NCBI RefSeq assembly: GCF_011250645.1 | Contig: NZ_JAANNO010000023.1 | Location: forward strand, 1 to 34,287 | Reading direction: 5' to 3' | From: Motilibacter aurantiacus | GTDB taxonomy: Bacteria > Actinomycetota > Actinomycetes > Motilibacterales > Motilibacteraceae | Length of the DNA: 34,287 nt | Shown here: positions 7,601 to 31,732 of the stretch, one piece after another | Position numbering within the stretch: the first letter of the stretch is position 1 | Layout: each line of letters opens with the position of its first letter | Translations under genes and position numbers: made by a program | Notes under the pieces: generated by a model | The model's database searches: none | Told to the model about the DNA's origin: nothing | Seen by the model: the letters and a program-made list of their open reading frames with translations, nothing else

Positions 7601-8181
7601 GGCCCGGCGCCACGGCCACCAGGGTGGAGGGGACCGTCGGCGACGTCCACGGCGACACCGTCGTCAGCGTCACGTACTCCCGGCTCGCCGCCAAGCACCG
7701 GCTGCGTGCGTGGGCGAGCCTGGTCGCGCTCACGGTCGCGCACCCCGGCACGCGGTGGCGGGCGGTCACCATCGGCAGGGGCTACGGCGACCGGCCGCGC
7801 TGCTCGACCCTCGGGCCGCTGCGGCCGGAGGACGCGTCCATCGTGCTGGGGCAGCTCGTGTCCCTGCACGCCGCCGGGATGCGCGAGCCGCTGCCGATGG
7901 CGGTGAAGACGTCCGCGGCCTATGCCGACGTCCGGGAGCGCGGCGAGGACACCGACCTCGCTCTCGGGCGCGCCCGCGAGGAGTGGCTGGGCAACGACAC
8001 CGTGCCGGGAGAGGCGGAGGACGCGGCGCACCGGATGGTGTGGGGAGCGTGGACCGGGCTCGACGTGCTGCAGCAGGCCGGGCTGGCCGACGGAGCAGCC
8101 GCCGAGCCCACCCGCTTCGGCGCACTGGCCCGCCGGCTGTGGGCGCCGCTGCTCGCCGCCGAGCAGGTGGAGTTGTTGTGA
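4693..8181 (+). CDS. recC: Exodeoxyribonuclease V gamma subunit RecC
   Basis: This 1162-residue protein is RecC, the non-catalytic subunit that grips DNA ahead of the RecB and RecD motors and, in studied homologues, reads Chi sites. Family features are the N-terminal VHRSERADELAYALAGLL, a helicase-like ACHGPARQVEVLREVLL segment near residue 358, and the signature SVPHRVVALLGLDDGVFPR near 680-700. The helicase motifs are degenerate as expected: there is no Walker A. Length is close to E. coli RecC. GTG 4693 starts right after the first conserved upstream stop and lacks a strong ribosome site. Its TGA overlaps the recB start as GTGA, so the complex is made from one operon in the order C-B-D, as in mycobacteria. 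Confidence 0.93.
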   Translation: MLHVHRSERADELAYALAGLLREPAAGADPFTPEVVAVPARGVERWLTQSLSRELGTAAGRADGVCANLRFPSPGGLVDEALSAAAGIDPREDVWLPDRLVWPLLEVIDGCAGEAWCDVLGRHLGAAGPAGDRHRRGRRYAVARHLAGLFASYAAARPRMVQDWAGGLDTDGSGTPLPADLAWEAELWRRLRAHVGVPGPAERLPSACELLRAEPGTLPWPARLSVFGPTRLSASALAVLAAVAEHRDVHLWLPHPSPALWRSVGPLVPVADRRRAADPTAHLARNPLLASLGRDARELQLALAAAPGAVLHSDHPAPAAPGTLLGRLQAALRDDAALPPAAGRVALPANDRSVQVHACHGPARQVEVLREVLLGLLAADPRLEPRDILVMCPDVEAYAPLVSAAFGLGEATGATAGAADGSAAPGLDHPAHGLRVRLADRSLRQTNPLLAVLAAVLELADSRLPASRVLDLAALPPVRRRFALDDDDLERLQDWVARSGVRWGLDADSRRPFALGGFGQNTWRAGLDRVLLGAAMAEEGAASAVGTATPTPRSSWLGLALPLDDVDSSDIDLAGRLAELVDRLAVVLGSLTGEQPLAAWLDALRAALDALADVRDADSWQLAQARAELAEVGTAGTAARGEVRLTLPEVRALLARRLRGRPTRANFRTGTLTVCTLVPMRSVPHRVVALLGLDDGVFPRNATPDGDDILLRDPWVGERDPRSEDRQLLLDAVLAATEHLVVAYSGADERTNSPRPPAVPLGELLDAVDALAVAPDGGPARGHVLVRHPLQPFDPRNFTPAGLGAPGPFSFDRTALGGALAAAGGRVPPRPFLPQPLPDRPAEPVLALDALVRLLEHPVRAFLQQRLQVGVPGSDDEPSDVLAVELEPLERWAVGERLLRDRLAGASPERCRQAEWRRGTLPPGPLGGRALEAVLGSVEPLVRAAEAARAGAPAQTVDLVAAVPASSGARPGATATRVEGTVGDVHGDTVVSVTYSRLAAKHRLRAWASLVALTVAHPGTRWRAVTIGRGYGDRPRCSTLGPLRPEDASIVLGQLVSLHAAGMREPLPMAVKTSAAYADVRERGEDTDLALGRAREEWLGNDTVPGEAEDAAHRMVWGAWTGLDVLQQAGLADGAAAEPTRFGALARRLWAPLLAAEQVELL

Positions 8182-11100
8182 ACATCGCTTCTCCTGATGC
8201 TCCGTTCGCTGATGCGAGCTTCGGTATCGACGACCCGCCCCCCTTCGACGTCTGCGGCCCGCTGCCCACGGGGACGACGGTGCTCGAGGCCAGCGCGGGC
8301 ACCGGCAAGACGTTCACCCTGGCGGCGCTCGCCACCCGCTACCTCGCGGAGGGGCGAGCCCGGCTCGACGAGCTCATGCTGGTCACGTTCAGCCGGGCGG
8401 CGACCCAGGAGCTGCGCGAGCGGGTCCGTGAGCGGCTGACCGCCGCCGAGCGCGCTCTGGCCGACCCGGTCGCAGCGCGCGCGAGCGGCGACACCGTCCT
8501 GGCGCATCTCGCGGCCGCCGACGACGACGAGGTGGCGGTTCGCCGACGACGCCTCACGGTGGCGCTCGCCGGGTTCGACGCCGCGACCATCGCGACGACG
8601 CACCAGTTCTGCCAGCAGGTGCTGACCAGCCTGGGCGTGGCCGGCGACACCGATCCCGACGCGGTGCTCGTCGACAGCGTCGACGACCTGGTGGTCGAGG
8701 CGGTCGACGACCTCTACCTGCGCAAGTACGCCGCGCCGGGGGCGGGCCGCCCCGCCTTCCCACGCCGCACCGCGCTCGAGGTCGGCCGGGCGGCCGTGGA
8801 CGACGACGCAGCCGCGCTCGAGCCGGCAGACGCCCCGCCCGGCAGCGAGGCCGCCGAGCGGTACGGGCTGGCCCGGGCCGTGCGCCGCGAGGTGGAGCTG
8901 CGCAAGCGCCGGCAGCGTCTCCTCGGCTACGACGACCTGCTCACGCGGCTCGCCGCCGCACTGGAGCACGACGCGGAGTCCGGCGCAGCGGCCGTGCGGC
9001 TGCGGGCGCGCTACCGGGTCGTCATGGTGGACGAGTTCCAGGACACGGACCCGGTGCAGTGGCGGATCCTGCGCCTCGCCTTCCACGGGCACGCGACGCT
9101 GGTGCTCATCGGCGACCCGAAGCAGGCGGTCTACGCCTTCCGCGGCGCGGACGTCGTGACGTACCTCGACGCCGTCAGGGACGCCAGCCGGCGTGCGACG
9201 CTGGCGCTCAACTGGCGCAGCGACGAGCCGCTGCTGCAGGCCCTCGACACGCTGCTCGGCGGAGCAGCGCTGGGAGATGCAGGAATCCGCGTTCGCCCCG
9301 TCCGGTCGGCGCACCCGGGCACCCGACTGGTGTCGGCCCCGCAGGCGTCCCCGCTGCGGCTGCGTGTGGTGGGGCGACGGGGGCTGCCCCGGGTCCGCAG
9401 CGGATTCGTCCAGACCGCTGCCGCGCGCGACCTGGTGGCCGCGGACCTGGCCGCCGACGTCGTACGCCTGCTGTCGGCCCCTGCCCGGCTGCGCGACGCC
9501 GGGCAGGACCGCGACGTGCAGCCCGCGGACATCGCGGTGCTCGTGCGGACCAACAGCCAGGGGGCGCTGGTCCGGGACGCGCTGCGCGCGGCCGGGGTGC
9601 CCGCCGTCCTCGCCGGCGGGCCGAGCGTCTTCACCACCTCCGCGGCCCGCGACTGGCTCACCCTGCTCGAGGCTCTCGAGCAGCCGCACCGCGTCTGGCG
9701 GGCGCACGCCGCCGCCCTGACCAGCCTGCTGGGCTGGTCCCCCGAGCAGCTGGACGCCCGCGGTGAGCGTGCTGCCGACGAGCTCGGCCCGCTGCTGCGC
9801 GAGTGGGCCGCGGTCCTCGCGGAGCGCGGGGTGGCCGCCCTCGCCGAGACCGTCTACGCCACGCAGCGCGTTCCCGAGCGGCTGCTCGCCGCCGTGCACG
9901 GCGAGCGCGAGCTCACCGACCTGCGCCACGTCGCCCAGGCGCTGCACGCGGCCGCGCAACGCGACCGGCTCGGGCTGCCCGCCCTCGTGGAGGAGCTGCG
10001 CCGGCGCATCACGGACGCGGCCGGGGACACGGACGAGGAGCGGACCCGCCGGCTGGAGTCGGACGCCGCGGCGGTACAGGTCGTCACGATCCACCGCAGC
10101 AAGGGGCTCGAGTTCCCGGTCGTCTACCTCCCGTTCGGCTGGGACCGGTGGGTCCCCTCGGTGCCGGACCCGCTCCGGCTGCACGACGAGAGCGGCGGCC
10201 GGGTGCTCGACGTGGGCGGGCGCACCGGGCCGGGGTGGGGCCGTCGGCGGGCACGGCACGCCGAGGAGGAGTCGGGTGAGGACCTCCGGCTGCTGTACGT
10301 CGCCCTGACCCGCGCCCGCTCGCAGGCCGTCCTCTGGTGGGCGCCGTCCTCGAACACCCCCTCGGCCGCCCTGCACCGGCTCCTCTTCGGTGGGCACGCC
10401 CCCGGCGACCAGCCACCGGACCCGGTACCGGTGCCCGGCGACGACGACGCCGTGGCCCGGCTGCGCGAGCGGCTCCGGCCGGCCGCAGCGCACCTCTCCC
10501 TCGAGGCGGTGCCGCCCGAGCCGGAGGCCACGTCGTGGCGCCCGGCACGACCGAACGCGGCTGCGCTGGAGGCGGCGTCGTTCGACCGTCCTGTGGACAC
10601 CGCCTGGCGGCGCACGTCCTACAGCGCGTTGACCGCGGCCGCGCACGGCGTCCCGGCCGAGCCACCGCTGTCGCGGGTCGGCAGCGAGGCCGAGGAGCCG
10701 GAGAAGGACGACGAGCCGCCGGTGCCGCCGGTCGACTCGGCCCCGCCGGCCCCGGCGGACGCGACCGCGCTCGAGGCGAGGCTGCGCGCGATGCCCTCAC
10801 CGATGGCGGGGCTGCCGAGCGGCACGGCGTTCGGCACGCTCGTGCACGCCGTCCTGGAGCGGTTCGACGGCGCGGCGCCGGACCTCGAGGCCGAGCTGCG
10901 TCGGCTGGCCGGGGAGCAGCTCGCCGCCCGGCCTGTCCGCGGCCTCGACGCCGCCGCCCTCGCCGCGGCGCTGGCCCCGGTCGTGCGGACGCCGCTGGGG
11001 CCGCTGGCCGACGGGCTGCGCCTGGCCGACGTGCGCCCCGACGACCGGCTGCCGGAGCTGGACTTCGAGCTGCCGCTCGCCGGGGGCGAGCGCCCGACCG

Positions 11101-11639
11101 CCGACGTCTCGCTGGGCGACGTCGCGGCCCTTCTGCGCAGGCGGCTGCCGGCCGACGACCTGCTGGCGGCGTACCCGGCGATGCTCGACGCGCCCGAGCT
11201 GCGCGGCCAGCCGCTGCGCGGGTTCCTCACCGGCAGCATCGACTCGGTCCTGCGCGTGCACGGCCCGGACGGCCCGCGCTACCTGGTCGTCGACTACAAG
11301 ACCAACTGGCTCGGCGGCCTCGGCCCGGAGGCGCCCGCGTTGAGCGCCTGGGACTACCGGCCGGACGCGATGGCCGCGGCGATGTGCGCCGCCCACTACC
11401 CGCTGCAGGCGCTGCTCTACTCCGTCGCGCTCCACCGCTTCCTGCGCTGGCGGCAGCCGGCGTACTCGCCGGGGCGGCACCTGGGGGGGACGCTCTACCT
11501 GTTCCTCCGCGGCATGTGCGGCCCCGGGACCCCGACCGTCGACGGGACCGTGTGCGGCGCGCTCGGCTGGCGGCCTCCTGCCGAGCTCGTCGCCGAGCTG
11601 TCCGATCTCCTCGACACCGGAAGCATCGATCGCCGATGA
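8178..11639 (+). CDS. recB: Exodeoxyribonuclease V beta subunit RecB (helicase-nuclease)
   Basis: This 1153-residue protein is a UvrD-type 3'-5' helicase joined to a C-terminal nuclease. Motifs in order: Walker A SAGTGKT near residue 40, THQFC, Walker B VDEFQDTD near 283, LNWRSD, IHRSKGLEFPV near 640, YVALTRAR, then the nuclease triad region with GSIDSVL near 1018 and VVDYKTNW near 1036 (catalytic Asp and Lys present). It therefore looks fully active. The frame is open far upstream, but the start is GTG 8178, which overlaps the recC stop by four bases and leaves a normal-length N-terminus. The 1B region between the Walker motifs is shorter than in E. coli. With RecC and RecD it resects double-strand breaks for RecA loading. 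Confidence 0.93.
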   Translation: MNIASPDAPFADASFGIDDPPPFDVCGPLPTGTTVLEASAGTGKTFTLAALATRYLAEGRARLDELMLVTFSRAATQELRERVRERLTAAERALADPVAARASGDTVLAHLAAADDDEVAVRRRRLTVALAGFDAATIATTHQFCQQVLTSLGVAGDTDPDAVLVDSVDDLVVEAVDDLYLRKYAAPGAGRPAFPRRTALEVGRAAVDDDAAALEPADAPPGSEAAERYGLARAVRREVELRKRRQRLLGYDDLLTRLAAALEHDAESGAAAVRLRARYRVVMVDEFQDTDPVQWRILRLAFHGHATLVLIGDPKQAVYAFRGADVVTYLDAVRDASRRATLALNWRSDEPLLQALDTLLGGAALGDAGIRVRPVRSAHPGTRLVSAPQASPLRLRVVGRRGLPRVRSGFVQTAAARDLVAADLAADVVRLLSAPARLRDAGQDRDVQPADIAVLVRTNSQGALVRDALRAAGVPAVLAGGPSVFTTSAARDWLTLLEALEQPHRVWRAHAAALTSLLGWSPEQLDARGERAADELGPLLREWAAVLAERGVAALAETVYATQRVPERLLAAVHGERELTDLRHVAQALHAAAQRDRLGLPALVEELRRRITDAAGDTDEERTRRLESDAAAVQVVTIHRSKGLEFPVVYLPFGWDRWVPSVPDPLRLHDESGGRVLDVGGRTGPGWGRRRARHAEEESGEDLRLLYVALTRARSQAVLWWAPSSNTPSAALHRLLFGGHAPGDQPPDPVPVPGDDDAVARLRERLRPAAAHLSLEAVPPEPEATSWRPARPNAAALEAASFDRPVDTAWRRTSYSALTAAAHGVPAEPPLSRVGSEAEEPEKDDEPPVPPVDSAPPAPADATALEARLRAMPSPMAGLPSGTAFGTLVHAVLERFDGAAPDLEAELRRLAGEQLAARPVRGLDAAALAAALAPVVRTPLGPLADGLRLADVRPDDRLPELDFELPLAGGERPTADVSLGDVAALLRRRLPADDLLAAYPAMLDAPELRGQPLRGFLTGSIDSVLRVHGPDGPRYLVVDYKTNWLGGLGPEAPALSAWDYRPDAMAAAMCAAHYPLQALLYSVALHRFLRWRQPAYSPGRHLGGTLYLFLRGMCGPGTPTVDGTVCGALGWRPPAELVAELSDLLDTGSIDRR

Positions 11640-13516
11640 GCATTGCTGCCGGCAGCGCTGTGCCCGACGACACCCTCGACACCGCCGCCGTCGAGCCGTA
11701 CGACGCGCGGCTCGCCCTGCGCGCCGACGGGGTGCTGCGTACCTTCAACGTCGCCGGAGTCCTGCATGCGGCCGACGTGCACGTCGCCACGACGCTCGGC
11801 CGGCTCGGCGGCGAGGAACGGCCGGACGTGCTGCTCGCCGCCGCGCTCGCGGTGCGGGCCGTGCGCCACGGCTCCGTCTGCGTGGACCTCGCGACGGTCC
11901 GCCACACCGCGGTCGTCGACGGCGTGGGGCGGGAGGCGGTCGAGGCCCTGCCGTGGCCCGAGCCCGCGACGTGGCTCCCCCGGGTGGCGGACGGCCCGCT
12001 CGTCGCGGGGGACGGCAGCCCGGCTGGGGAGGCCGAGGACGCCCGCCCGCTGCGGCTCGACGGCGGGCTGCTCTACCTCGACCGCTACTGGCGGCAGGAG
12101 CAGCTCGTACGCCACGAGCTGCGGGCGCGGGAGGAGCTGCCGCCGCCGGAGGTGGACCCCGACCGGTTGGCCGCCGCCGTGGGCCGGCTCTTCCCGGCCG
12201 AGCCGGACGGGCGCGGGCTCCAGCACGTCGCCGGCTCGACGGCTGCGCGGCGCTGGGTGACCGTGATCGCCGGTGGGCCGGGCACCGGCAAGACCACCAC
12301 GGTGGCGCGCGTCCTCGCGCTGCTGCAGGACCTGCACCGGCGGCCCGGGACGGACGGGCTCGCGCTGCGCGTCGCGCTGGCGGCCCCGACGGGCAAGGCG
12401 GCCGCGCGGCTCGAGGAGGCGGTGCGGGCGGTCGGGGAGACCTTCACGGGAGCCGACCGGTCGGCGGTCGCGGGCCTCTCCGCGTCCACCCTGCACCGGC
12501 TGCTCGGCCGGCGGCGCGACTCGCGCACCCGGTTCCGGCACGACCGGGCGAACCGGCTGCCCTTCGACGTCGTCGTGGTCGACGAGACGTCCATGGTGTC
12601 GCTGACGATGATGGCCCGGCTGCTCGAGGCGCTGCGCCCGGACGCCCGTCTCGTGCTGGTCGGCGACCCCGACCAGCTGGCCTCCGTGGAGGCCGGCGCC
12701 GTGCTCGGGGACCTGGTCCACCGCTCTGCCGCCGACGGCACCGGCCCGGACAACGTCGTCGTGCTGCGGCACACGTACCGGTTCGGCGGCGGGATCGCGG
12801 AGCTCGCGCGCGCGGTGCAGGCCGGCGACGCCGAGACGGCGCTCGGGCTGCTGCGCGCGGGCTCGGAGCAGCTGACCTTCAGCGAGCAGGCCGCCGACGT
12901 GCCGCCGTCGGCGGGCGCCGCGGACCGGCTGCGCCGCGACGTCCTGTCCGCGGGCCGCGCGACGGTCGAGGCCGCCCGGCGGGGGGAGGTGGCTGCGGCG
13001 CTGCACGCCCTCGACGCGCACCGGCTGCTCTGTGCGCACCGGGAGGGGCCGTACGGCGTCGACCACTGGAGCGGCGTCGTCGAGCGGTGGCTGGTCGAGG
13101 CCGTTGCCGGCTACGCGGCCGAGGGTGAGTGGTACGTCGGCCGGCCGCTGCTCGTCACCGCGAACGACTACGAGACCGCGCTCTACAACGGCGACACCGG
13201 GGTCGTGGTCCGCGCTGACGGGGACGTCCCCCGCGCGGCCTTCGCCCGCGGCGGCGGGCCCGTGCTCGTCCCGCCGAGCCGGCTGGCCGCAGTCCAGACC
13301 GTCCACGCCATGACCGTGCACAAGAGCCAGGGCAGCCAGTTCGACGCCGTGTCCCTGATCCTGCCGCCGCCGGACTCGCCGCTGCTGACCCGCGAGCTGG
13401 TCTACACCGCCGTGACCCGGGCCCGCAGCCGGGTCCACGTCCTCGGCAGCGCGGACGCCGTGCGCGCGGCGCTCGCCCGGCCGGTGGCCCGGGCCAGCGG
13501 CCTGCGCCGCGGGTGA
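11636..13516 (+). CDS. recD: Exodeoxyribonuclease V alpha subunit RecD (5'-3' helicase)
   Basis: This 626-residue protein is an SF1B helicase. An N-terminal domain of about 200 residues contacts RecC. The motor follows: Walker A GGPGTGKTTT near residue 212, PTGKAAARLEEA, STLHRLLG, Walker B VVVDETSM near 311, VGDPDQLASVEAG near 342, HTYRFGGGI, VHKSQGSQFD near 561 and YTAVTRAR near 589. All helicase motifs are intact. ATG 11636 overlaps the recB stop in an ATGA; the frame continues upstream but only as antisense-like sequence. Length is close to E. coli RecD (about 608), so this is the RecBCD partner and not the longer RecD2 type. Confidence 0.93.
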   Translation: MSIAAGSAVPDDTLDTAAVEPYDARLALRADGVLRTFNVAGVLHAADVHVATTLGRLGGEERPDVLLAAALAVRAVRHGSVCVDLATVRHTAVVDGVGREAVEALPWPEPATWLPRVADGPLVAGDGSPAGEAEDARPLRLDGGLLYLDRYWRQEQLVRHELRAREELPPPEVDPDRLAAAVGRLFPAEPDGRGLQHVAGSTAARRWVTVIAGGPGTGKTTTVARVLALLQDLHRRPGTDGLALRVALAAPTGKAAARLEEAVRAVGETFTGADRSAVAGLSASTLHRLLGRRRDSRTRFRHDRANRLPFDVVVVDETSMVSLTMMARLLEALRPDARLVLVGDPDQLASVEAGAVLGDLVHRSAADGTGPDNVVVLRHTYRFGGGIAELARAVQAGDAETALGLLRAGSEQLTFSEQAADVPPSAGAADRLRRDVLSAGRATVEAARRGEVAAALHALDAHRLLCAHREGPYGVDHWSGVVERWLVEAVAGYAAEGEWYVGRPLLVTANDYETALYNGDTGVVVRADGDVPRAAFARGGGPVLVPPSRLAAVQTVHAMTVHKSQGSQFDAVSLILPPPDSPLLTRELVYTAVTRARSRVHVLGSADAVRAALARPVARASGLRRG

Positions 13517-14481: not shown

Positions 14482-15660
14482 TCAGCGCACTGCGCGGGCG
14501 GGGCGCGGCCCGGTCGAACGCAGGCTGCCGAGGCGTCCCAGCAGGTCGAACCAGAAGCGCGCGCCGGGCACCAGCGCGAGCCAGCTGAGCAGGAACCCGA
14601 GCCCGAGCCGTACGCCGAACCACACGTCGGCGCCCCCGTTGCCCGTCGCGCTGGCCAGCCCGCGGGCCTCCGCCCACGTGCACGCGGTCGCGTCCTCGCC
14701 GGCCTGGGCGCGCAGGGCCCGCGCGGTCGCCGTGCAGTCGGCGACGCTGCCCCAGCCGACCGGCAGGCCGGAGCCGCGCAGGCTGCCGATCTCGCGGCGC
14801 ACCTGCGCGAGGCACTCGTCGGCCTCACCCCCGCAGTCGGACGCGGCCAGCGCTTGCGTGACGACGGCCTCGCGCAGCGCCTGGTCGGTGTAGAGAGCGC
14901 GCGCCACCGACACGGTGTTGACGTTGCACAGCACCACGACGAAGAACCCGACGGCGAGCGAGATCCAGCGGACCCGGCGCTTGTACCAGCCGGACACCCG
15001 GTCCATGTGGTCGTCGTACCAGTTCTCGACGTTCTCCCGGAAGGCCGCGACGTCGCCCTCGGTGTTCTTCAGCAGCGTCTGCATCGACTGCTTGAACATG
15101 GTGCCCTCGGGCAGCGCGCCGACGGCCCGCTCGAGCGCGTCGAACGTCGTACGCCCCTGCTGGTCGGGGATGAGCAGGTCCACCACCGCCTGGGCGAACG
15201 ACCGGGACGGGGCGTACGACGGCAGCTTGCGCAGCTCGCCCCACCGCCTCGGGGCGGCCTGCGCGAGCTGACCCTTCTGCCCCTGGTTGCGCAGCAGCGG
15301 TGACCCGAGCAGGGCGACCGAGACCTGGCGGAGCGCGGCGTCCTCGTCCGACGTCACCGCGGGCGCGGGCTCGGCGAGCGCCTCGGTGTTGTCCAGCGCC
15401 TCCGGGCTGCCGGGCGGCGGCGCGCAGGGCAGGGCGTGCTCGATGCCCTCGCGGAAGCCGCGGAACGCGTCGGCCGGCGCGGGCGCGGCGGGCGCCGCGG
15501 CCGCCCTGCCGTCGACCAGCGTCCGGATCCCGAGCAGCAGGAAGCGCGCCCGCAGCCCGAGGAACCGCGCGATCCCCTCGGTCACGATCGTCGTGACTGC
15601 GGCGGCGACCGCGTAGACGAAGACCAGGCCGACGGCGACGTCGAGCAGCAGGGAGTCCAC
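14482..15660 (-). CDS. Three-helix membrane protein of unknown function
   Basis: This 392-residue protein has hydrophobic segments at about 5-30 (AVGLVFVYAVAAAVTTIVTE), 232-250 (WISLAVGFFVVVLCNVNTV) and 346-365 (VWFGVRLGLGFLLSWLALVP). A large cytoplasmic region between the first two ends in the distinctive VENWYDDHMDRVSGWYKRR just before helix 2. An outer loop between helices 2 and 3 carries four cysteines (C276, C283, C309, C327). I recall similar unnamed proteins with the DRVSGWYKRR and RFWFDLLGRL signatures in many bacteria, but no function. GTG 15660 is the start: GGAGG lies four bases upstream and helix 1 follows at once. The frame upstream of it lacks protein-like features. Confidence 0.7.
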   Translation of the reverse strand: MDSLLLDVAVGLVFVYAVAAAVTTIVTEGIARFLGLRARFLLLGIRTLVDGRAAAAPAAPAPADAFRGFREGIEHALPCAPPPGSPEALDNTEALAEPAPAVTSDEDAALRQVSVALLGSPLLRNQGQKGQLAQAAPRRWGELRKLPSYAPSRSFAQAVVDLLIPDQQGRTTFDALERAVGALPEGTMFKQSMQTLLKNTEGDVAAFRENVENWYDDHMDRVSGWYKRRVRWISLAVGFFVVVLCNVNTVSVARALYTDQALREAVVTQALAASDCGGEADECLAQVRREIGSLRGSGLPVGWGSVADCTATARALRAQAGEDATACTWAEARGLASATGNGGADVWFGVRLGLGFLLSWLALVPGARFWFDLLGRLGSLRSTGPRPARAVR

Positions 15661-16631: not shown

Positions 16632-18119
16632 CTACGGGAACGGGAACACGGCCGGGCTGCGCAGCCCCTTACGGCCGATCGCCCGGACCCCGAAGACCAC
16701 GTTGTCCTTGGACAGGTCGATCGTCGCCCGGTTCACCAGGCCGACCTCGATCGCGTGGGTCCACAGCGGCTCGTCGGTCGGCCGCCAGACCACCTCGTAG
16801 CCCTCGGTCAGCCCGCTGCCGTCCAGGGCCCAGGTGAGCACCGTGTCGTTGGTCAGGGTGGAGGTGATGACGCGGACGTTCGCCGGCATCCCCGGTGCCT
16901 GCGACAGCGACCAGAGCGACGCGAGGTTCACCCGCGCGACCCGCGCGATGTAGTCCCAGTCGCAGAACTCCGGCAGGTCCCCGTACACGACGCCGTTCTC
17001 CGTGCGCAGGTCCTGGTGCTGGTGGGCGAAGTCCTCGTTGGGCTCGGTGAAGCGCACGGCCGGGTAGCCCTGCTCCAGGAAGGCGGTGTGGTCACCGCCG
17101 CGCAAATAGCGGTCGAGCCGGTAGATCAGCCGGACGGACATCCCGGTGCTCTTGTTCTGAGCCACCTCGGCGATGAACCGGCCCAGCTCGCGGGCGGGCG
17201 AGTCGTTCTCGCCACCGATGGAGCGCCGCGTCGACGCCCGGGAGGCGCTCTCGTTCGGCGGGATGCCCTGCACGAAGCAGCGGACGGTGTAGCGCTCGCG
17301 CTTGCCGTCGTCGCCGGTGCTCGAGCCGATGATGTCGTTGTTCAGCATCGCCTGGACGTCGACGTTCGCGGCCCGCAGCCGGCTCGCCATGTAGCGCCCG
17401 CCGTAGAGGTTCTGCTCCTCGCCGGCGACGGCGACGAACAGGATGGTCGCGTCGGGGTCCTTGGTGGCGAGAACGCGGGCCATCTCCATCACGGCGGCCA
17501 CACCGGACGCGTCGTCGTTCGCCCCGGGGGAGTCGCTCGTCGCGTCCAGCACGTCGGTGACGCGCGAGTCGTAGTGGCCGGAGACGACGTAGACGCGCTC
17601 CGGCTGACGCGAGCCGCGCAGGGTGGCGATGACGTTGCTGATGACCGTGGGCGTGGGGATGCGCGACGCCGGCTGCTGCAGGTAGGACTGCGTCTCGACC
17701 GTCATCCGGCCGCCGGACGCGGCGGCGTAGCTGCTGAGCTCGGCGAAGATCCAGTCGCGCGCGGCGCCGATCCCGCGTACCGGGTCGTCCTGCGCGGACA
17801 GCGTGTGCCGGGTGCCGAACGACACCAGCTTGCGCACGATCGCCTCGATGCGAGCGGGGTCGATCTCGGCGAGCAGGTCGCGCAGGTCGTTGTCCGGCTT
17901 CTGCGGCCGGATCCTCTTGCCGGGCCCGTCGGGCCAGTCGACCGTCGCGCTCCACGGCAGCTCGGGGTCGGGCTCGTCGGCGTGGGCGGCCTGCCCGGGG
18001 AGCTGGGTGCCGACCAGCCCGGCAGCGACCGCCGCGGAGCGGGTGAGGAAAGCACGTCGAGACGCCGCTCCCGGGGCGTCGTCCGGCTGCATCTCGTCGT
18101 CCGTCCGCGAATCGGGCAC
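16632..18119 (-). CDS. Tat-exported M28-family zinc aminopeptidase-like protein with C-terminal Fn3-like domain
   Basis: This 495-residue protein begins with a twin-arginine signal (SRRAFLTRSAAVAAGLVG, cleavage near AHA at 46). The peptidase domain carries the five M28 zinc ligands: H182 in SGHYDS, D202/203 in GANDDASG, E234/235 in AGEEQ, D262 in NNDIIG and H366/368 in AHQHQD. It should be an active extracellular di-zinc exopeptidase that trims peptides. Residues 412-495 resemble a fibronectin type III repeat (PANVRVITS, TVLTWALDG, GYEVVWRP), a common surface-binding tail. GTG 18119 is the start because GGAGGA lies six bases upstream; it puts the twin arginines at residues 21-22. The open frame continues 27 codons further without protein-like content. 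Confidence 0.85.
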   Translation of the reverse strand: MPDSRTDDEMQPDDAPGAASRRAFLTRSAAVAAGLVGTQLPGQAAHADEPDPELPWSATVDWPDGPGKRIRPQKPDNDLRDLLAEIDPARIEAIVRKLVSFGTRHTLSAQDDPVRGIGAARDWIFAELSSYAAASGGRMTVETQSYLQQPASRIPTPTVISNVIATLRGSRQPERVYVVSGHYDSRVTDVLDATSDSPGANDDASGVAAVMEMARVLATKDPDATILFVAVAGEEQNLYGGRYMASRLRAANVDVQAMLNNDIIGSSTGDDGKRERYTVRCFVQGIPPNESASRASTRRSIGGENDSPARELGRFIAEVAQNKSTGMSVRLIYRLDRYLRGGDHTAFLEQGYPAVRFTEPNEDFAHQHQDLRTENGVVYGDLPEFCDWDYIARVARVNLASLWSLSQAPGMPANVRVITSTLTNDTVLTWALDGSGLTEGYEVVWRPTDEPLWTHAIEVGLVNRATIDLSKDNVVFGVRAIGRKGLRSPAVFPFP

Positions 18120-18194: not shown

Positions 18195-18244
18195 GGTCAA
18201 TAGCTGACCCGGCAGGGAATGTGAATTCTCGGTTTCGGGTCAAT
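18195..18244. promoter_or_regulatory. Repeated GGTCA sites upstream of the M28 peptidase gene
   Basis: GGTCA (18195-18199) and TGACC (18205-18209) form an inverted repeat with a 5-base gap, and GGTCAAT recurs at 18238-18244. On the minus strand this gives TTGACC twice. They lie in an AT-richer stretch between the hydrolase stop and the peptidase start. The two TTGACC copies could be -35 elements, but I see no convincing -10, so an operator role is equally possible. Confidence 0.35.
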
Positions 18245-19595
18245 CGCCGGCCCGCTGCACGGCGTAGCGTTCTTGGCGGGCCACCGTCCCCGGGACGAAG
18301 AAGCCGGAAGCCGCCTTCCCCCACGCGCGCACCGAGGGGTCCTCGTGCGGCAGCCGCTCGGCCGCCCGGGCGTACCCGTCCAGTGCGTGCTTGCCGCCCG
18401 TGGTGCTCGGCACGCTGTCGAAGCGCACGGTGGTGAGGTCGCGCCCGGCGCGGTTGGGGCGCCCGTCGAGCGCGGGGACGAGGTCGCCCCGGTCCTCCAG
18501 GGCCAGCACGGGGACCCCGTGCCCGGACGGCAGCCGGCCCAGCGGTGACCCGGCCGTCACGACGGCCGCGACGCGGAAGCGACGGCGTACGGCGGGGTCG
18601 GCGGCGAGCCCGGCCGCGACGATCCCGCCCTGGCTGTGCCCGACGAGCAGGACGGGGGCGTCGGGCGGGACGCCTGCGGCCTCGAGAGCGGCGACCACGC
18701 CGTGGGCGTACGCCGTGGGCCGCCCGCTGACGGCGTGGACGTTGGTCGCCAGGTCGCGCACCCGAGGGCCCGGGCGCAGCGCCCAGGACTCCGTGCCGGG
18801 CAGCTCCACGACGTAGCGGACCGTCCCGTCCGGCGCCGTGAGCCGGCGAACGCCGATCTCCCCGGGCGCGGCGCCCGCGGAGCGGCGCTGCCGGCGGCCG
18901 ACGCCGCGCAGCAGGTCGCCGACCCCACGCGGAGCGACGACGTCGCCGGGCTGGGCACTCCCGCCCGCCGTCAGGGCCGGCCGACCGGCGGGGAGCAGGC
19001 CGCGCGGGCTGCGCAGCGCGCCGTCGAACGTCACGGCTCGGGGCCCGGCCCGGCTCCCACGTGGCAGCGGGGCCCAGAGCCCGAGCCCGGCCGCGACCCC
19101 GGGGAGGCCGGCGGCGAGCGGCTCCACGAGAGCGGGGTCGGCCAGCCGCTCCAGCCCGCCCGCCCCGCCGAGCGCGAGGGCCGGCGCCGCGACCGGGGCC
19201 ACGACCGGGAGCGCCGCGCCGACCGCCACCCCGACGCCGTTCAGCGCGGCGTCACGTCCCAGCGCCAGCGCCTCGTCCGCCGCTCTGTAGGCGGCGACCG
19301 CAGCCTGGAGCGCCCGGGCGAGCCCTTCGGTCGCGAAGGCCGCCCCACCCAGCCCGTCCGGCCCGGCGGCCGACAGAAGCGCGCCCTCCGCCTCGAGCGC
19401 GCTTCCCGGGGACAGCGCGAACGAGGCCGCGAGCGCCGGGTCGACGGCGGCCCGGGCCGCGTCGGCCAGCGCCTCGCGCAGCGTCACCGCACCGGCCCGC
19501 AGCATCCCGGCAAGCGCGTGCAGGTCGTCGTAGTGCGCCGACACGCCCCCGGCCCCGCCCGAGACCGCGAAACCCGTGGGGCCCGTTGCGCTCAC
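18240..19595 (-). CDS. Alpha/beta hydrolase with N-terminal helical domain, coupled to a WXG-like protein
   Basis: This 451-residue protein has two parts. Residues 15-115 are helical, alanine-rich and WXG/LXG-like (HYDDLHALAGMLRAGAVTLREAL); they are followed by a hydrophobic stretch at 121-146. Residues 250-451 are an alpha/beta hydrolase: YVVELPGTESW, nucleophile elbow LVGHSQGG with Ser 321, an acid in ALEDRGDLVPAL (Asp 368 or 371) and His 403 in GGKHALDGY. The triad is complete, so lipase/esterase activity is likely. The start is GTG 19595, sharing GTGA with the stop of the upstream small protein, so the two are translated together. I recall similar pairs in other actinobacteria without known function. 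The domain order and partner recall type VII secreted lipases, but no ESX genes are in this window. Confidence 0.7.
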   Translation of the reverse strand: MSATGPTGFAVSGGAGGVSAHYDDLHALAGMLRAGAVTLREALADAARAAVDPALAASFALSPGSALEAEGALLSAAGPDGLGGAAFATEGLARALQAAVAAYRAADEALALGRDAALNGVGVAVGAALPVVAPVAAPALALGGAGGLERLADPALVEPLAAGLPGVAAGLGLWAPLPRGSRAGPRAVTFDGALRSPRGLLPAGRPALTAGGSAQPGDVVAPRGVGDLLRGVGRRQRRSAGAAPGEIGVRRLTAPDGTVRYVVELPGTESWALRPGPRVRDLATNVHAVSGRPTAYAHGVVAALEAAGVPPDAPVLLVGHSQGGIVAAGLAADPAVRRRFRVAAVVTAGSPLGRLPSGHGVPVLALEDRGDLVPALDGRPNRAGRDLTTVRFDSVPSTTGGKHALDGYARAAERLPHEDPSVRAWGKAASGFFVPGTVARQERYAVQRAGD

Positions 19596-19936
19596 CGCAG
19601 CCTGCCGGTGACCGCGTCGGCGGCGTCCTGCACCGCCCCGGCCGCGGCGCGCACGCCGCCGAGGACCACGGCCGCGATGTCCTCCTCGCGCCGGCGCACC
19701 TGGCGGGCGTGCCGGGCCAGTGCGGCGGCCGCGTCGTCCAGCCGGTCGGCTGCGCCGACGAGCGCGCGGGCGTGCTCCTCGGCCCGCTGGCGGAAGCGCG
19801 CCGCCGCCGAGGACGCCCACCGCACGCCCGGCACGGCTGCCACCAGCCGGGCGTGCTCACGGCGTACCTCGTCGGCCGCGCGGCCCACCCGCCGCGCGAG
19901 GTCGTCGAGCGGCTCACCGAGGGACATCGGGCGCAC
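19592..19936 (-). CDS. WXG100-like small helical protein
   Basis: This 114-residue protein (111 from ATG 19927) is predicted all-helical with a turn near PGVRW-ASSAAARFRQ (Trp 40, then Ala-Ser), followed by a long helix. That is the helix-turn-helix layout of WXG100/ESAT-6-like proteins, although the motif is W-A-S and not a strict W-x-G. There is no signal peptide. It precedes the alpha/beta hydrolase gene and overlaps its GTG by four bases, so it is probably a chaperone or secretion partner of that enzyme. The start is GTG 19936 or ATG 19927; neither has a clear ribosome site. A possible -10, TAGCGT on the minus strand near 19970, would give a short leader. Confidence 0.6.
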   Translation of the reverse strand: MRPMSLGEPLDDLARRVGRAADEVRREHARLVAAVPGVRWASSAAARFRQRAEEHARALVGAADRLDDAAAALARHARQVRRREEDIAAVVLGGVRAAAGAVQDAADAVTGRLR

Positions 19937-20140: not shown

Positions 20141-20662
20141 CTACGTCGCCGACTCCTCGAGCTTCGCGTACGCCAGCTGCAGCACGTCCGCGGCCGTGAC
20201 CGCCGTGAGCACCGCCGCCGCCATGCGCGTGGCGCGCGGGGCAGCGACGAGGCCGAAGGCGAAGCCGGTCGCCGCCCACTGCCCGATGCAGAACGGGCAG
20301 GTGACCAGCTCCCCGATCGCCTTGCGCGGGCCGGAGCCGCGGACCTCCTCGGCCAGCTCGGCCTCGCCGCTCGTGCCGACGAACCTCGTGAACGGTGCGC
20401 GCAGCGGGCTGGTGACCGGGTCCTTCGCGATCAGCCGGGAGAGCTTGTGCGTGGCGACCGACACCAGCGCGAGGTCCGCCGCGGAGACGCGCTCGGGCAG
20501 CTGCTTGCCGGTGGCGCGCAGGGCGAGCGCGCCCGCCCCGACCGCGGCGGCGTACGTCCCCATCAGCGCGACGAACGAGCCGAGCGGCCGCTCCTCGCCG
20601 CCGGTGTAGGCCGCCTTCTCGGCGTGGATGGTGCGGACGGGCGCGGGCTGCTCGCCCGTCAC
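20141..20662 (-). CDS. DUF1360-like membrane-associated protein (second copy)
   Basis: This 173-residue protein of unknown function is the tandem paralogue of the gene just upstream. The shared core is RPLGSF/Y, ISAADLALVSVATHKLSRLIAKDPVTSPLRAPFTRF, then GELVTCPFCIGQW (CPFC at 122-125) and a hydrophobic C-terminal third. Two or three membrane helices are likely (about 32-50 and 130-165), with the CPFC pair at a membrane edge. I assign it to the DUF1360 type (B. subtilis YjcA-like) from memory. The start is GTG 20662, overlapping the upstream stop as GTGA; the longer frame to 20800 is antisense-like sequence. No enzymatic motif is visible; the Cys pair could bind metal or be redox-active. Confidence 0.65.
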   Translation of the reverse strand: MTGEQPAPVRTIHAEKAAYTGGEERPLGSFVALMGTYAAAVGAGALALRATGKQLPERVSAADLALVSVATHKLSRLIAKDPVTSPLRAPFTRFVGTSGEAELAEEVRGSGPRKAIGELVTCPFCIGQWAATGFAFGLVAAPRATRMAAAVLTAVTAADVLQLAYAKLEESAT

Positions 20663-21183
20663 TTCTCCGCCGCCTGCTCGGCCTGCGCGTAGAGCAGCTG
20701 CAGGAAGTCGGACCCCGCGACCGCCGCGAACACCGACGCGACCGCGCGGGTCTGGCGCGGCGCCAGGAAGAGCCCGGTCGTGAACGACGTGGCGATCCAC
20801 TGGCTGAGGCAGAACGGGCAGGTGAGCAGCTCGCCGAGGGCGCGCAACGGTCCCTCGACGCGCATCTCCTCCTTGAGCTCGCTCGGCCCCGAGACGCCGG
20901 CGAACTTCACGAAGGGAGCGCGGATAGGCGAGGTGATCGTGCCCTTGGTGATGACACGGGAAGCCTTGAAGGTCGCCGCCGCCACCAGTGCGATGTCGGC
21001 AGCAGAGATCCGCGTATTCCGCTTCCGGGAAGCCGCGAACGTCAGAGCGCCCAGCCCGATGGTCGAGTAGGCGGTGATCAGGGTGGCGTAGGAGCCGAGC
21101 GGGCGGTCCTCGCCCTGTGCATAGGCGTGCTTGTGCTCGCGCGCCTTCTCGGTCAGCGAGCTCACGAACGGCGGTTCAGCCAC
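20659..21183 (-). CDS. DUF1360-like membrane-associated protein (first copy)
   Basis: This protein of 174 residues closely parallels its downstream neighbour in length, order of segments and spacing: HAYAQGEDRPLGSY, ISAADIALVAAATFKASRVITKGTITSPIRAPFVKF, GELLTCPFCLSQW (CPFC 122-125) and LQLLYAQAEQA at the end. The pair arose by tandem duplication and has since diverged in much of the sequence outside these blocks. GTG 21183 is the start; it overlaps the SDR gene's stop by eight bases, which strongly implies coupled translation. Function is unknown. The conserved THKLSR/TFKASR and RAPF blocks may line an active or binding site at the membrane. The frame upstream of 21183 has no protein-like content. 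Confidence 0.65.
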   Translation of the reverse strand: MAEPPFVSSLTEKAREHKHAYAQGEDRPLGSYATLITAYSTIGLGALTFAASRKRNTRISAADIALVAAATFKASRVITKGTITSPIRAPFVKFAGVSGPSELKEEMRVEGPLRALGELLTCPFCLSQWIATSFTTGLFLAPRQTRAVASVFAAVAGSDFLQLLYAQAEQAAEK

Positions 21184-30482: not shown

Positions 30483-31732
30483 TCAAGCTGTCAGTGCTGC
30501 GGTGGGGCTCGGGGTCGGGGTGATCTTGGACAGCTGGCGGCGGGCCGCTGCGGGGCCTGGGCCCGGCATGGCAACGGGCGTAGGGTCGGTTGTGGCGGGT
30601 CCGGGAAGTGACTTCTCCGAAGCGCCGGTATCGGGGTTGTAGCCGGCCGCGCTGGAGCCAGTAGACGCCCCCGCTTGTCCTCTCGGGCCCGTCACCTCGT
30701 CCTTGCCGTGTTCGCGTTTCTGGTCGTTCACGAGCTGGCGATAGACCACGTCGGAGAGCCGGCGCTTGAGCGCGCGCATCGCCTCCATCGCGCTCTTGCC
30801 TTCGGCGCGTTTGCGGTCGAAGTAGCGGCGGCCTTCGGTGTCGTGACGCAGCTGGACGACCGCCATGATGTGCAGCACCCGGTTGATCCGCCGGTTCCCG
30901 GCCCGGGACAGCCGGTGCCGGCGCTGGTCCCCAGACGAGGCGTCGATGGGCGCGGTCCGTTCCAGGACGCGAAGTGCCCTTTGGTCGGGAACCGGGACAC
31001 GTCGCCGATGTCGCCGAGCAGCCGCGCCGTGCCGGACGGGCCGATGCCGTTCAGGTCCAGCAGGCTCGACCCGGTCGCCTTCACCAGCTCGGTCAGCTGG
31101 CGCTTCGCGGTCTTGACCCGGGCGTCGATCGCGTCGAGTTCGGCGAGCAGCTCGACCGCGAGCTCGACCCGCGTCGCAGCGACCACATCGGCGGGCTGCA
31201 CCTCGCTGAGCAGCGCCTTTGCCTGCATAGCGGACAGGAACTTCTTGGCGCCGCCGGGCACCAGCTCGGTGAGGAGGCGGTGCAACCGGCTCACCGTCAA
31301 CGTCCGAGCGGCTCCGAGCTCGTCGCGCCGGTCCGCGAGCAGGCGCAGCGCGACGGTCTCGTCGTCGACCCGGACCCGCGCCAGCCGTGGAGTGCGTAGC
31401 GCTACGACGGCGACCGAGTGCGCGTCGGTCTCGTCGGTCTTGCGGCCCTGCCCGGTGGAGAAGACCCGCGCCCGCGCCGACAGCTTGGCCGGCACGTCGA
31501 CCACGGGCCCGCCGTCGGCCACCAGTCGCTGGGCGAGGTGGCGGCCGACGCCCTGGCAGCCCTCGACCGCCCACAGCCGGTCAGGCCACGCCCGCCCCGC
31601 GGCGAGCAGGTCGCGTTAGCCGTCCCGGTCGGTGCCGAACCTGCCGACGAAAGGCACCGTCTCGTGCTCATCCAGCACTTCGATGGTGGCGGACCGCTTA
31701 TGCGGGTCCATCCCAATGACAACTCGTCCCAC
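30483..31732 (-). pseudogene. IS110-family transposase, inactivated by a stop codon and a frameshift
   Basis: Two frames together restore an IS110-type DEDD transposase. From GTG 31732 (GAGAGGA upstream) it reads VIGMDPHKRSATIEVLD (first Asp), then an in-frame TAA (31616-31618) where a Tyr codon is usual, then WAVEGC (Glu) and RKTDETDAHSV (last two Asp). The C-terminal domain starts LNGIGPSGTARLLGDIGD. After ASWNG near 30955 one base is missing; the next frame continues APIDASSGDQRRHRLSRAGNRRINRV, which has the SSG where IS110 enzymes carry their catalytic serine, and ends in a Pro/Thr-rich tail at 30483. Two independent lesions make it a dead copy. IS110 elements lack normal terminal inverted repeats, so I could not fix the ends of the element. 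Confidence 0.85.

Follow-up and report, generated by a model that had tools for sequence, protein, structure and literature searches.

The stretch of DNA described here, hereafter the window, comprises 34,287 nucleotides of the actinomycete Motilibacter aurantiacus and is the entire contig C23 (NZ_JAANNO010000023.1) of a 4.59 Mb genome that is 98.8% complete. On its minus strand lie two adjoining genes, one for a small helical protein that resembles the WXG100 proteins of type VII secretion systems (T7SS), and the other for an alpha/beta-hydrolase with a helical N-terminal domain (Table 1). The two open reading frames and their GTGA overlap had been located correctly in an earlier sequence-only reading, which described the products as translationally fused. 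The genes lie in different frames with a four-base overlap, which rules out fusion; the GTGA overlap instead makes translational coupling of two separate genes likely. The gene order, 4-bp overlap included, is identical at two loci from the same family as the window (L034 and L035), and upstream genes that overlap are met again in many distant genomes, so that the arrangement is more than chance. Judged from its relatives, the pair is probably a type VII substrate pair that carries a lipase or esterase as cargo.

Table 1. Features of the gene pair in the window, and loci of the clade of relatives with a broken triad.
Feature	Position or loci	Strand	Remarks
WXG100-like small helical protein gene	19592..19936	-	114 aa; GTG start at 19936, alternative ATG at 19927
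W40-A-S motif, hairpin turn (W-x-S replacing W-x-G)	19811..19819	-	W column conserved; turn 38-42 in model
GTGA overlap (TGA stop of small gene and GTG start of hydrolase gene)	19592..19595	-	Sequence
Alpha/beta-hydrolase gene with N-terminal helical export-like domain	18240..19595	-	451 aa, GTG start, stop included in coordinates
N-terminal helical domain, residues 17-141	19173..19547	-	Predicted helices 18-50, 53-61, 63-77, 82-141
Y103-x-x-x-D107, candidate type VII secretion signal	19275..19289	-	YxxxD/E column in relatives
Catalytic alpha/beta-hydrolase domain, residues 205-451	18243..18983	-	Structure model; VIA-align
Nucleophile Ser321 (GHSQG)	18633..18635	-	Ser in 86% of 127 relatives
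Acid Asp371	18483..18485	-	Asp in 99% of 127 relatives
Base His403	18387..18389	-	His in 85% of 127 relatives
Broken-copy clade	L031, L079, L081, L084, L092, L093, L095, L096, L098, L099, L101, L102		
Broken-copy clade, named loci	L140, L170, L176, L180, L181, L184, L191		

Relatives of the hydrolase were collected with a profile (A1), which matched 130 of the 296 genomes of the class at an E-value of 0.001. Weaker rows were dropped because they mostly covered the nucleophile region only, so that matches at E ≤ 6e-19 were retained, in 57 genomes and at 77 places; the stretches fetched cover all but 19 of these places. A first contig scan with the single protein had gained nothing. Named genomes were also scanned and contributed 80 loci, from Actinokineospora, Lentzea, Blastococcus, Nocardioides, Plantactinospora, Segniliparus, Flexivirga and others, a set that is only partly independent of the first (L182 is G079 and L119 is G001), and the profiles used for counting WXG100-like and EspG-like genes were built from the first set. 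Genes were called with a simple script, by which no hydrolase was called in L041, L047, L091, L106 and L108 or in the named loci L124, L151 and L192. Removal of hydrolases of 380 residues or fewer and of identical sequences reduced 142 hydrolases to 127, and 125 of them have a readable neighbour.

The small protein and the hydrolase recur together. The named set has 85 hydrolase genes, of which 82 lie off a contig edge; the two genes nearest upstream include a WXG100-like gene in 69 cases and, by the wider profile, an EspG-like gene in 54. The commonest order is WXG100-like gene, EspG-like gene and hydrolase (46). The sequence-only reading had proposed a survey of how often the two genes co-occur; in the merged set, a WXG100-like gene is found no more than two genes upstream of the hydrolase in 101 of 125 cases. 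The other profiles were made from 43 of 57 genes (A6), 28 of 29 middle genes (A4), 17 of those 28 (A12), 40 of the 80 named loci plus the window (A7), and 26 of 58 lipoprotein matches (A10).

The small protein is WXG100-like both by profile and by predicted shape. It scores 25.5 bits against Pfam PF06013 (WXG100) over residues 10-84 (cut-off 27.3), 27.3 bits against NCBIfam TIGR03930 (cut-off 44.85), and 24.4 bits against EspA_EspE (cut-off 27). Because both curated WXG100 cut-offs are missed, membership of WXG100 by curated score was rejected, and the protein is named WXG100-like rather than filed in the family. Its AlphaFold2 model, built with 30 relatives (predicted local distance difference test, pLDDT, 94.7), consists of helix 7-37, the W40-A-S turn and helix 43-113, and thus has the predicted form of a WXG100 protein, namely about 100 residues, a two-helix hairpin and the motif in the turn, with W-A-S standing where W-x-G is expected. 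Among partners picked by profile, W-x-G is present in 73 of 106 and W-x-[GS] in all 106, and all 38 partners that were aligned have W in the turn column, having been chosen by a profile that includes the W. The epithet 'WXG-like' of the sequence-only reading needs correction as to the motif, which is W-x-S.

Structural comparison gives a similar picture. In a Foldseek search of the PDB, EsxA, EsxB and further proteins of the WXG100 type filled the first 33 rows for the small-protein model, at a probability of 1.00 but with E of 0.02-0.4, none of the matches having E < 0.001. VIA-align placed the model on Bacillus anthracis EsxB with Z 10.7 and on PE25 with Z 9.7 (1.4 Å over 79 residues); eukaryotic ESCRT-III chains matched at Z 10.6, and because they score about as well as EsxB, hairpin Z values alone prove little. 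Searched against the PDB, profile A5 found coiled coils and chemoreceptors at E-values equal to or better than that of EsxA, and PDB searches with single sequences gave nothing informative.

The hydrolase model, built with 40 relatives (pLDDT 88.8; predicted template modelling score, pTM, 0.87), comprises a helical N-terminus, a linker of lower confidence and an alpha/beta-hydrolase domain. VIA-align, run on candidates from the Foldseek list, matched residues ~222-420 to plant phospholipase A1, class-3 lipases of fungi and feruloyl esterases at Z 9.7-10.9. It superposed residues 17-108 on Staphylococcus aureus EsxA (2vrz_B; Z 9.5, root-mean-square deviation 1.9 Å, 85/85 residues), a type of match that helical hairpins make easily. 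The complete Ser-Asp-His triad recognised from the sequence is present as S321 in GHSQG, D371 and H403, and is complete in 107 of 127 relatives. By predicted fold and triad the protein qualifies as a lipase-like alpha/beta-hydrolase, from which lipase or esterase activity may be expected.

Curated families offer little to hold the hydrolase. Its Pfam matches, PGAP1 (19.7 bits) and Abhydrolase_1 (15.4 bits), are both below cut-off and confined to the nucleophile region, and residues 1-280 have no Pfam match. No PE, PPE or PF08237 match of the protein and no LXG match of its N-terminus were found in the Pfam scan at E up to 1, so that placement of the pair with LXG, PE or PPE proteins by curated score was rejected; among relatives, one of 43 matches PF08237 (0.0083). 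The sequence-only reading had credited the hydrolase with WXG/LXG-like N-terminal helices of its own. A helical hairpin is indeed predicted in the model and superposes on EsxA.

The N-terminal domain also carries a candidate type VII export signal, YxxxD/E. Tyr is found at the Tyr103 column in 89 of 127 hydrolases, all 89 with Asp or Glu at +4, and YxxxD/E occurs anywhere in residues 61-160 in 90 of 127, against a mean of 24.3 and a maximum of 36 in 200 shuffles. Passages of PMC10765036 describe a broader form of the signal for WXG100 proteins; a pattern close to it, Tyr, Leu, Phe, Ile or Val with D/E at +4, is present in 113 of 127 hydrolases. The longer consensus given in those passages is matched in part by the window hydrolase, in which the last hydrophobic place is missed (residue 114 is Arg). 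Among the partners, YxxxD/E occurs in 43 of 106, in every case beginning no later than residue 20, with no instance at the distal end of helix 2, and the small protein of the window has no Tyr at all. The W thus sits on the partner and YxxxD/E on the second helix of the hydrolase. PE/PPE pairs divide the two motifs likewise, and passages of PMC7028111 place them near each other and suggest that together they make up a composite signal.

The third hydrolase of Nocardioides alkalitolerans (L039:9027-10409) has a W-x-G of its own (DWWGS) in its N-terminal part and no WXG100-like gene upstream, so that both halves of the signal might lie on one chain. It has no Pfam family match at 0.001; Pfam WXG100 is matched by one hydrolase relative in the scanned set, to which L039 does not belong. 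Furthermore, two frames of family f19 (G059:C1:6274778-6275134 and G292:C1:307657-308010), of 172 and 164 residues, match the N-terminal domain of the hydrolase only, over profile positions 7-130 in the first and 8-130 in the second, which would suit an export domain that also occurs by itself.

The two proteins can also be compared in their divergence. Across 101 gene pairs, the small protein co-diverges with the N-terminal domain of the hydrolase at r 0.87. The partial r is 0.50 for the N-terminal domain with the catalytic domain held constant and 0.26 for the catalytic domain in the reverse case (0.47 and 0.21 for distant pairs), and the maximum partial r for the N-terminal domain in 500 permutations was 0.16. 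These values are compatible, in an indirect way, with an interface for the small protein in the N-terminal domain of the hydrolase, but differing rates and saturation could contribute to them.

A third component, the middle gene of many relatives, resembles EspG. Such a gene is found upstream in 74 of 125 cases with the wider profile A4, in 64 of 125 with the stricter A12, and in 45 of 75 with A12 on named rows alone. PF14011 (EspG) is matched by 6 of 28 middle genes at E 0.01 or better (best 1.2e-8), and one middle gene matches it nearly end to end with 20.7 bits (cut-off 27). Against the PDB, the best matches of the middle-gene profile are EspG3 structures (E 0.0011 and 0.0028; profile positions 15-89, about the first quarter of the profile), and alignment by hhalign to EspG of Mycobacteriaceae reached 91.5% (E 8.6e-7, 106 N-terminal columns), compared with 0.1% for an unrelated profile. 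The wording 'EspG-like' is used because the Mycobacteriaceae profile itself finds only 8 of 125 middle genes, and some of the shorter genes counted with A4 (for example L039, L090 and L109) may be of another kind. In the family of the window (G000-G004), no EspG-like gene was found with profile A4, 120 of 161 candidates being scored in G000 and the positive control G019 giving 5.3e-44.

The genome also contains a secretion system that could serve such a pair. An ESX locus on contig C1 encodes two WXG100 proteins (64 and 70 bits), EccB, EccC, EccD, EccE, a subtilase and a T7SS_signal protein, and absence of a type VII system from the genome was accordingly rejected. No ESX core proteins are among the 28 window proteins scanned with Pfam, which, the WXG100-like match of the small protein aside, agrees with the sequence-only reading that no ESX genes are present in the window. 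A second, divergent EccC/EssC-like ATPase (G000:C10:65902-67791, in L030; 347.6 bits, frame of 1544 residues) lies away from the ESX locus.

In other genomes, the link to ESX can be counted among the matches listed, to which all figures on Ecc proteins here and below refer. EccC lies within 25 kb of 17 of the 77 hydrolase places, 16 in Nocardioides (g41) and one in another family (G180), and 26 further places in EccC-bearing genomes are not within that distance. An EccC/EssC-type ATPase (E < 1e-50) is found in 57 of 57 hydrolase genomes and in 155 of 239 others (Fisher 5e-10), and EccB in 29 of 57 and 84 of 239 (Fisher 0.034). Co-occurrence with EccB and with EccC/EssC-type ATPases was rejected as proof, as it follows clades.

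That 28 of the 57 hydrolase genomes have no EccB, so that a canonical ESX is not always there, would also fit an enzyme of the cytoplasm that has a helical protein for its activation or assembly and no part in secretion, the hairpins being generic coiled-coil pairing. The same could be said of the distance between the hydrolase and the ESX locus in the genome of the window and of the low specificity of hairpin fold matches. This explanation is nevertheless improbable, as it would leave aside the turn W and the helix-2 YxxxD/E, which are conserved where type VII substrates have them, the EspG-like genes upstream, the 17 of 77 copies that stand by ESX cores, and the lipoproteins encoded downstream of many relatives, which point outside the membrane.

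For a secreted pair, the lack of EccB in those genomes and the remoteness of the ESX locus are difficulties too, and several other observations add to them. The small protein misses the curated cut-offs and is matched almost as well by ESCRT-III as by EsxB. The Z of 9.5 between the hydrolase and EsxA is within the range where unrelated helical hairpins can match, and the hydrolase model, like that of the small protein, has no Foldseek match under E 0.001. The EspG likeness is mainly N-terminal and largely escapes the Mycobacteriaceae profile. Tyr is lacking in 38 of 127 relatives, including L034 from the family of the window and many Nocardioides copies with an intact triad, and the co-occurrence and linkage counts are lineage-structured and are not independent trials. 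Even so, a type VII substrate pair remains the preferred reading, and the earlier suggestion of a secreted lipase with its partner, built on the plan of type VII effectors, is supported by the comparison through YxxxD/E, the EspG-like genes and the ESX-adjacent copies of Nocardioides.

Some of those Nocardioides copies are of further interest for what they have lost. The triad is incomplete in 20 of 127 hydrolases, 19 of which form one Nocardioides clade (support 100; Table 1), with 18 lacking both Ser and His and one lacking His only. The tree shows two changes in the triad, one in this clade of 19 rows and the other in a single row with Asp replaced by Glu. The Nocardioides clade keeps Asp371 and YxxxD/E; Tyr is kept in all 20 broken copies, with an EspG-like gene upstream in 16 of 20 and a WXG100-like gene upstream in 16 of 20. 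Where coordinates are available, 11 of 12 broken copies are within 25 kb of EccC, and the twelfth, L102, is on another contig. Such nearness is not limited to broken copies, since five or more of the copies close to EccC either have the full triad or were left unscored. It is possible, judging from these sequences, that the broken Nocardioides clade is a pseudoenzyme part of the secretion machine.

In contrast, many intact hydrolases are followed by a small, mostly lipobox-bearing protein, which is encoded directly downstream in 42 of 105 intact hydrolases and in 0 of 20 others (Fisher 1.6e-4). The association with the triad is suggestive only, because triad loss is essentially one event; it follows clades and was rejected as proof, and the pairs test was not significant. 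By a simple pattern, the lipobox is missing in 11 of 44 downstream proteins, and among 26 compared with Pfam, one matched the general lipid-attachment site and none any other family. Their C-termini often read YGPRP or YGPHP (for example L147:7371-7799), and extra lipoprotein copies lie nearby in the Lentzea loci L129, L132, L136, L145, L146 and L156. As noted in the sequence-only reading, no immunity-like gene follows the hydrolase of the window, although one does in those 42 intact relatives. Relatives of the lipoprotein were not found in G000-G003 and G005, in a search made without a positive control.

Within the preferred reading, two roles can be envisaged for the exported enzyme. It might be an antibacterial lipase toxin of the TslA type, for which the lipoprotein of relatives would provide immunity. 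The restriction of the lipoprotein to intact hydrolases and its extra copies in Lentzea would suit such a role, and precedents are given in the passages available from two sources, for TslA/TilA in PMC10730906 and for the predicted Tox-ABhydrolase-3 toxins in PMC3482391. On the other hand, the triad has changed only twice on the tree, in one case as a single D-to-E row, and the pairs test does not reach significance. Moreover, 63 of 105 intact hydrolases, that of the window included, have no such gene directly downstream, the search of the five genomes was empty (with the limit just given), a quarter of the downstream proteins (11/44) have no lipobox by the simple pattern, and the catalytic domain appears constant between cassettes, unlike that of polymorphic toxins. 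A toxin thus seems a somewhat doubtful, if reasonable, sub-case.

Alternatively, the enzyme might be an esterase for envelope maintenance or nutrition, exported by the type VII route in the manner of LipY and the PE/PPE hydrolases and serving as no weapon. Envelope upkeep or lipid uptake has been proposed for exported PE/PPE hydrolases and LipY in passages of PMC7028111; the window hydrolase has no immunity-like gene after it, and the retention of broken copies beside ESX in Nocardioides would suit a housekeeping or scaffold role. The lipoprotein partner of many relatives, in turn, is better suited to protection. This sub-case is given a prospect just short of even, and since no lipoprotein gene follows in the window, there is a slight lean towards an envelope or nutrient enzyme over an antibacterial lipase for this genus.

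As a type VII substrate pair, the two proteins could work as follows. The small protein and the N-terminal hairpin of the hydrolase would pair in the cytoplasm as a four-helix bundle, in which the W of the partner, in its WxG/WxS turn, and the YxxxD/E of the hydrolase, in helix 2, would form a composite signal. Both motifs are seen, and by analogy with PE/PPE and EsxA/EsxB the signal would be read by EccC. The pair would then be exported folded and the catalytic domain delivered to the envelope or outside, where, judging from fold and triad, lipid or ester substrates would be hydrolysed. An EspG-like chaperone, encoded beside the partner in about half of the relatives, would guide the pair; in the genus of the window, in which the search found no EspG-like gene, uptake of the pair would do without one. 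The downstream lipoprotein, where present, would most simply be an immunity partner or one that limits activity.

The plan suggested by these sequences, a type VII substrate pair with an enzymatic cargo, is a known one. PE/PPE proteins with EspG, together with LipY and PF08237 proteins, share with the pair the use of two helical proteins, of which one bears the W and its partner YxxxD/E. They have an EspG-type chaperone, to be compared with the EspG-like genes in about half of the relatives here, and LipY/PF08237 proteins likewise carry an alpha/beta-hydrolase cargo, according to passages of PMC7028111. They differ in that the window hydrolase has no PE, PPE or PF08237 match, that a single small hairpin supplies the W, and that YxxxD/E is found on the cargo enzyme itself. 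In addition, EspG, PE and PPE are assigned in passages of PMC4791881 to ESX clusters of mycolic-acid bacteria, whereas many hosts of the pair are outside that group. EsxA/EsxB have in common with the small protein the hairpin fold, the turn W and a length of about 100 residues, but the latter has W-x-S, misses the cut-offs and is encoded with one enzyme.

Similar systems are also found among type VII toxins. TslA of S. aureus is a phospholipase that is exported by the T7SS and neutralised by the lipoprotein TilA, as described in passages of PMC10730906, and the TslA-TilA-TlaA system (T7SSb) resembles the present one, as far as those passages go, in its phospholipase domain, small helical partners and a lipoprotein gene beside the catalytic end, as in the 42 of 105 intact relatives. 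However, the lipase comes first and the helical domain last in TslA, the reverse of the window hydrolase; TilA is a DUF576 protein, whereas the general lipid-attachment site, in 1 of 26, is the one Pfam match among the lipoproteins here; and the system belongs to another phylum and another T7SS type. LXG toxins with Lap partners and EsaE are alike in a helical N-terminal export domain and small helix-turn-helix partners, and in some of these systems an EspG-fold chaperone is comparable to the EspG-like gene of the relatives, as given in passages of PMC10765036 and PMC11217815. Unlike them, the window hydrolase has no LXG Pfam match, and its family is one enzyme family rather than a set of exchangeable toxin domains. 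The nearest precedent is that of the alpha/beta-hydrolase toxins predicted with WXG-type T7SS in actinobacteria (passages of PMC3482391). By description, Tox-ABhydrolase-3 shares the GHSxG alpha/beta-hydrolase nearest to lipases, the WXG-type T7SS and the actinobacterial host, and in those passages it is listed with Imm66/Imm69, unlike the window pair.

In the open-access literature, as judged from titles, abstract openings and passages, no account was found of a WXG100-like partner, an EspG-like gene and a lipase tagged with YxxxD/E occurring together outside mycolic-acid bacteria. It may tentatively be proposed, with well under even confidence, that the operon of WXG100-like protein, EspG-like protein, YxxxD/E-lipase and lipoprotein is a widespread, previously undescribed type in actinobacteria and the non-mycobacterial counterpart of the PE-PPE-EspG export route, one branch of which would have become a dead, ESX-linked machine component (Nocardioides) and another chaperone-free (Motilibacter).

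The surroundings of the pair in the window are varied. The next gene downstream of the hydrolase, on the same strand, encodes a Peptidase_M28 protein (16632-18119). Upstream of the pair, two overlapping DUF1360 genes occupy 20141-21165 on the minus strand, and genes of like size are in the matching position in L034 and L035. A protein of 392 residues without a convincing Pfam match is encoded at 14482-15660 (minus), a RecC, RecB and RecD gene set at 4693-13516 (plus), and an IS110-type transposase at 30728-31522 (minus).

To our knowledge, little is known of what ESX-4-like machines export in ordinary actinobacteria. The family described here provides a concrete candidate cargo with both halves of an export signal, in culturable species such as Nocardioides alkalitolerans, and its distribution suggests a wider occurrence of EspG-type chaperones than in mycolic-acid bacteria alone. 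With members that have or lack the chaperone, have an intact or a broken triad, and have or lack the lipoprotein, the family offers a natural comparison for the role of each part.

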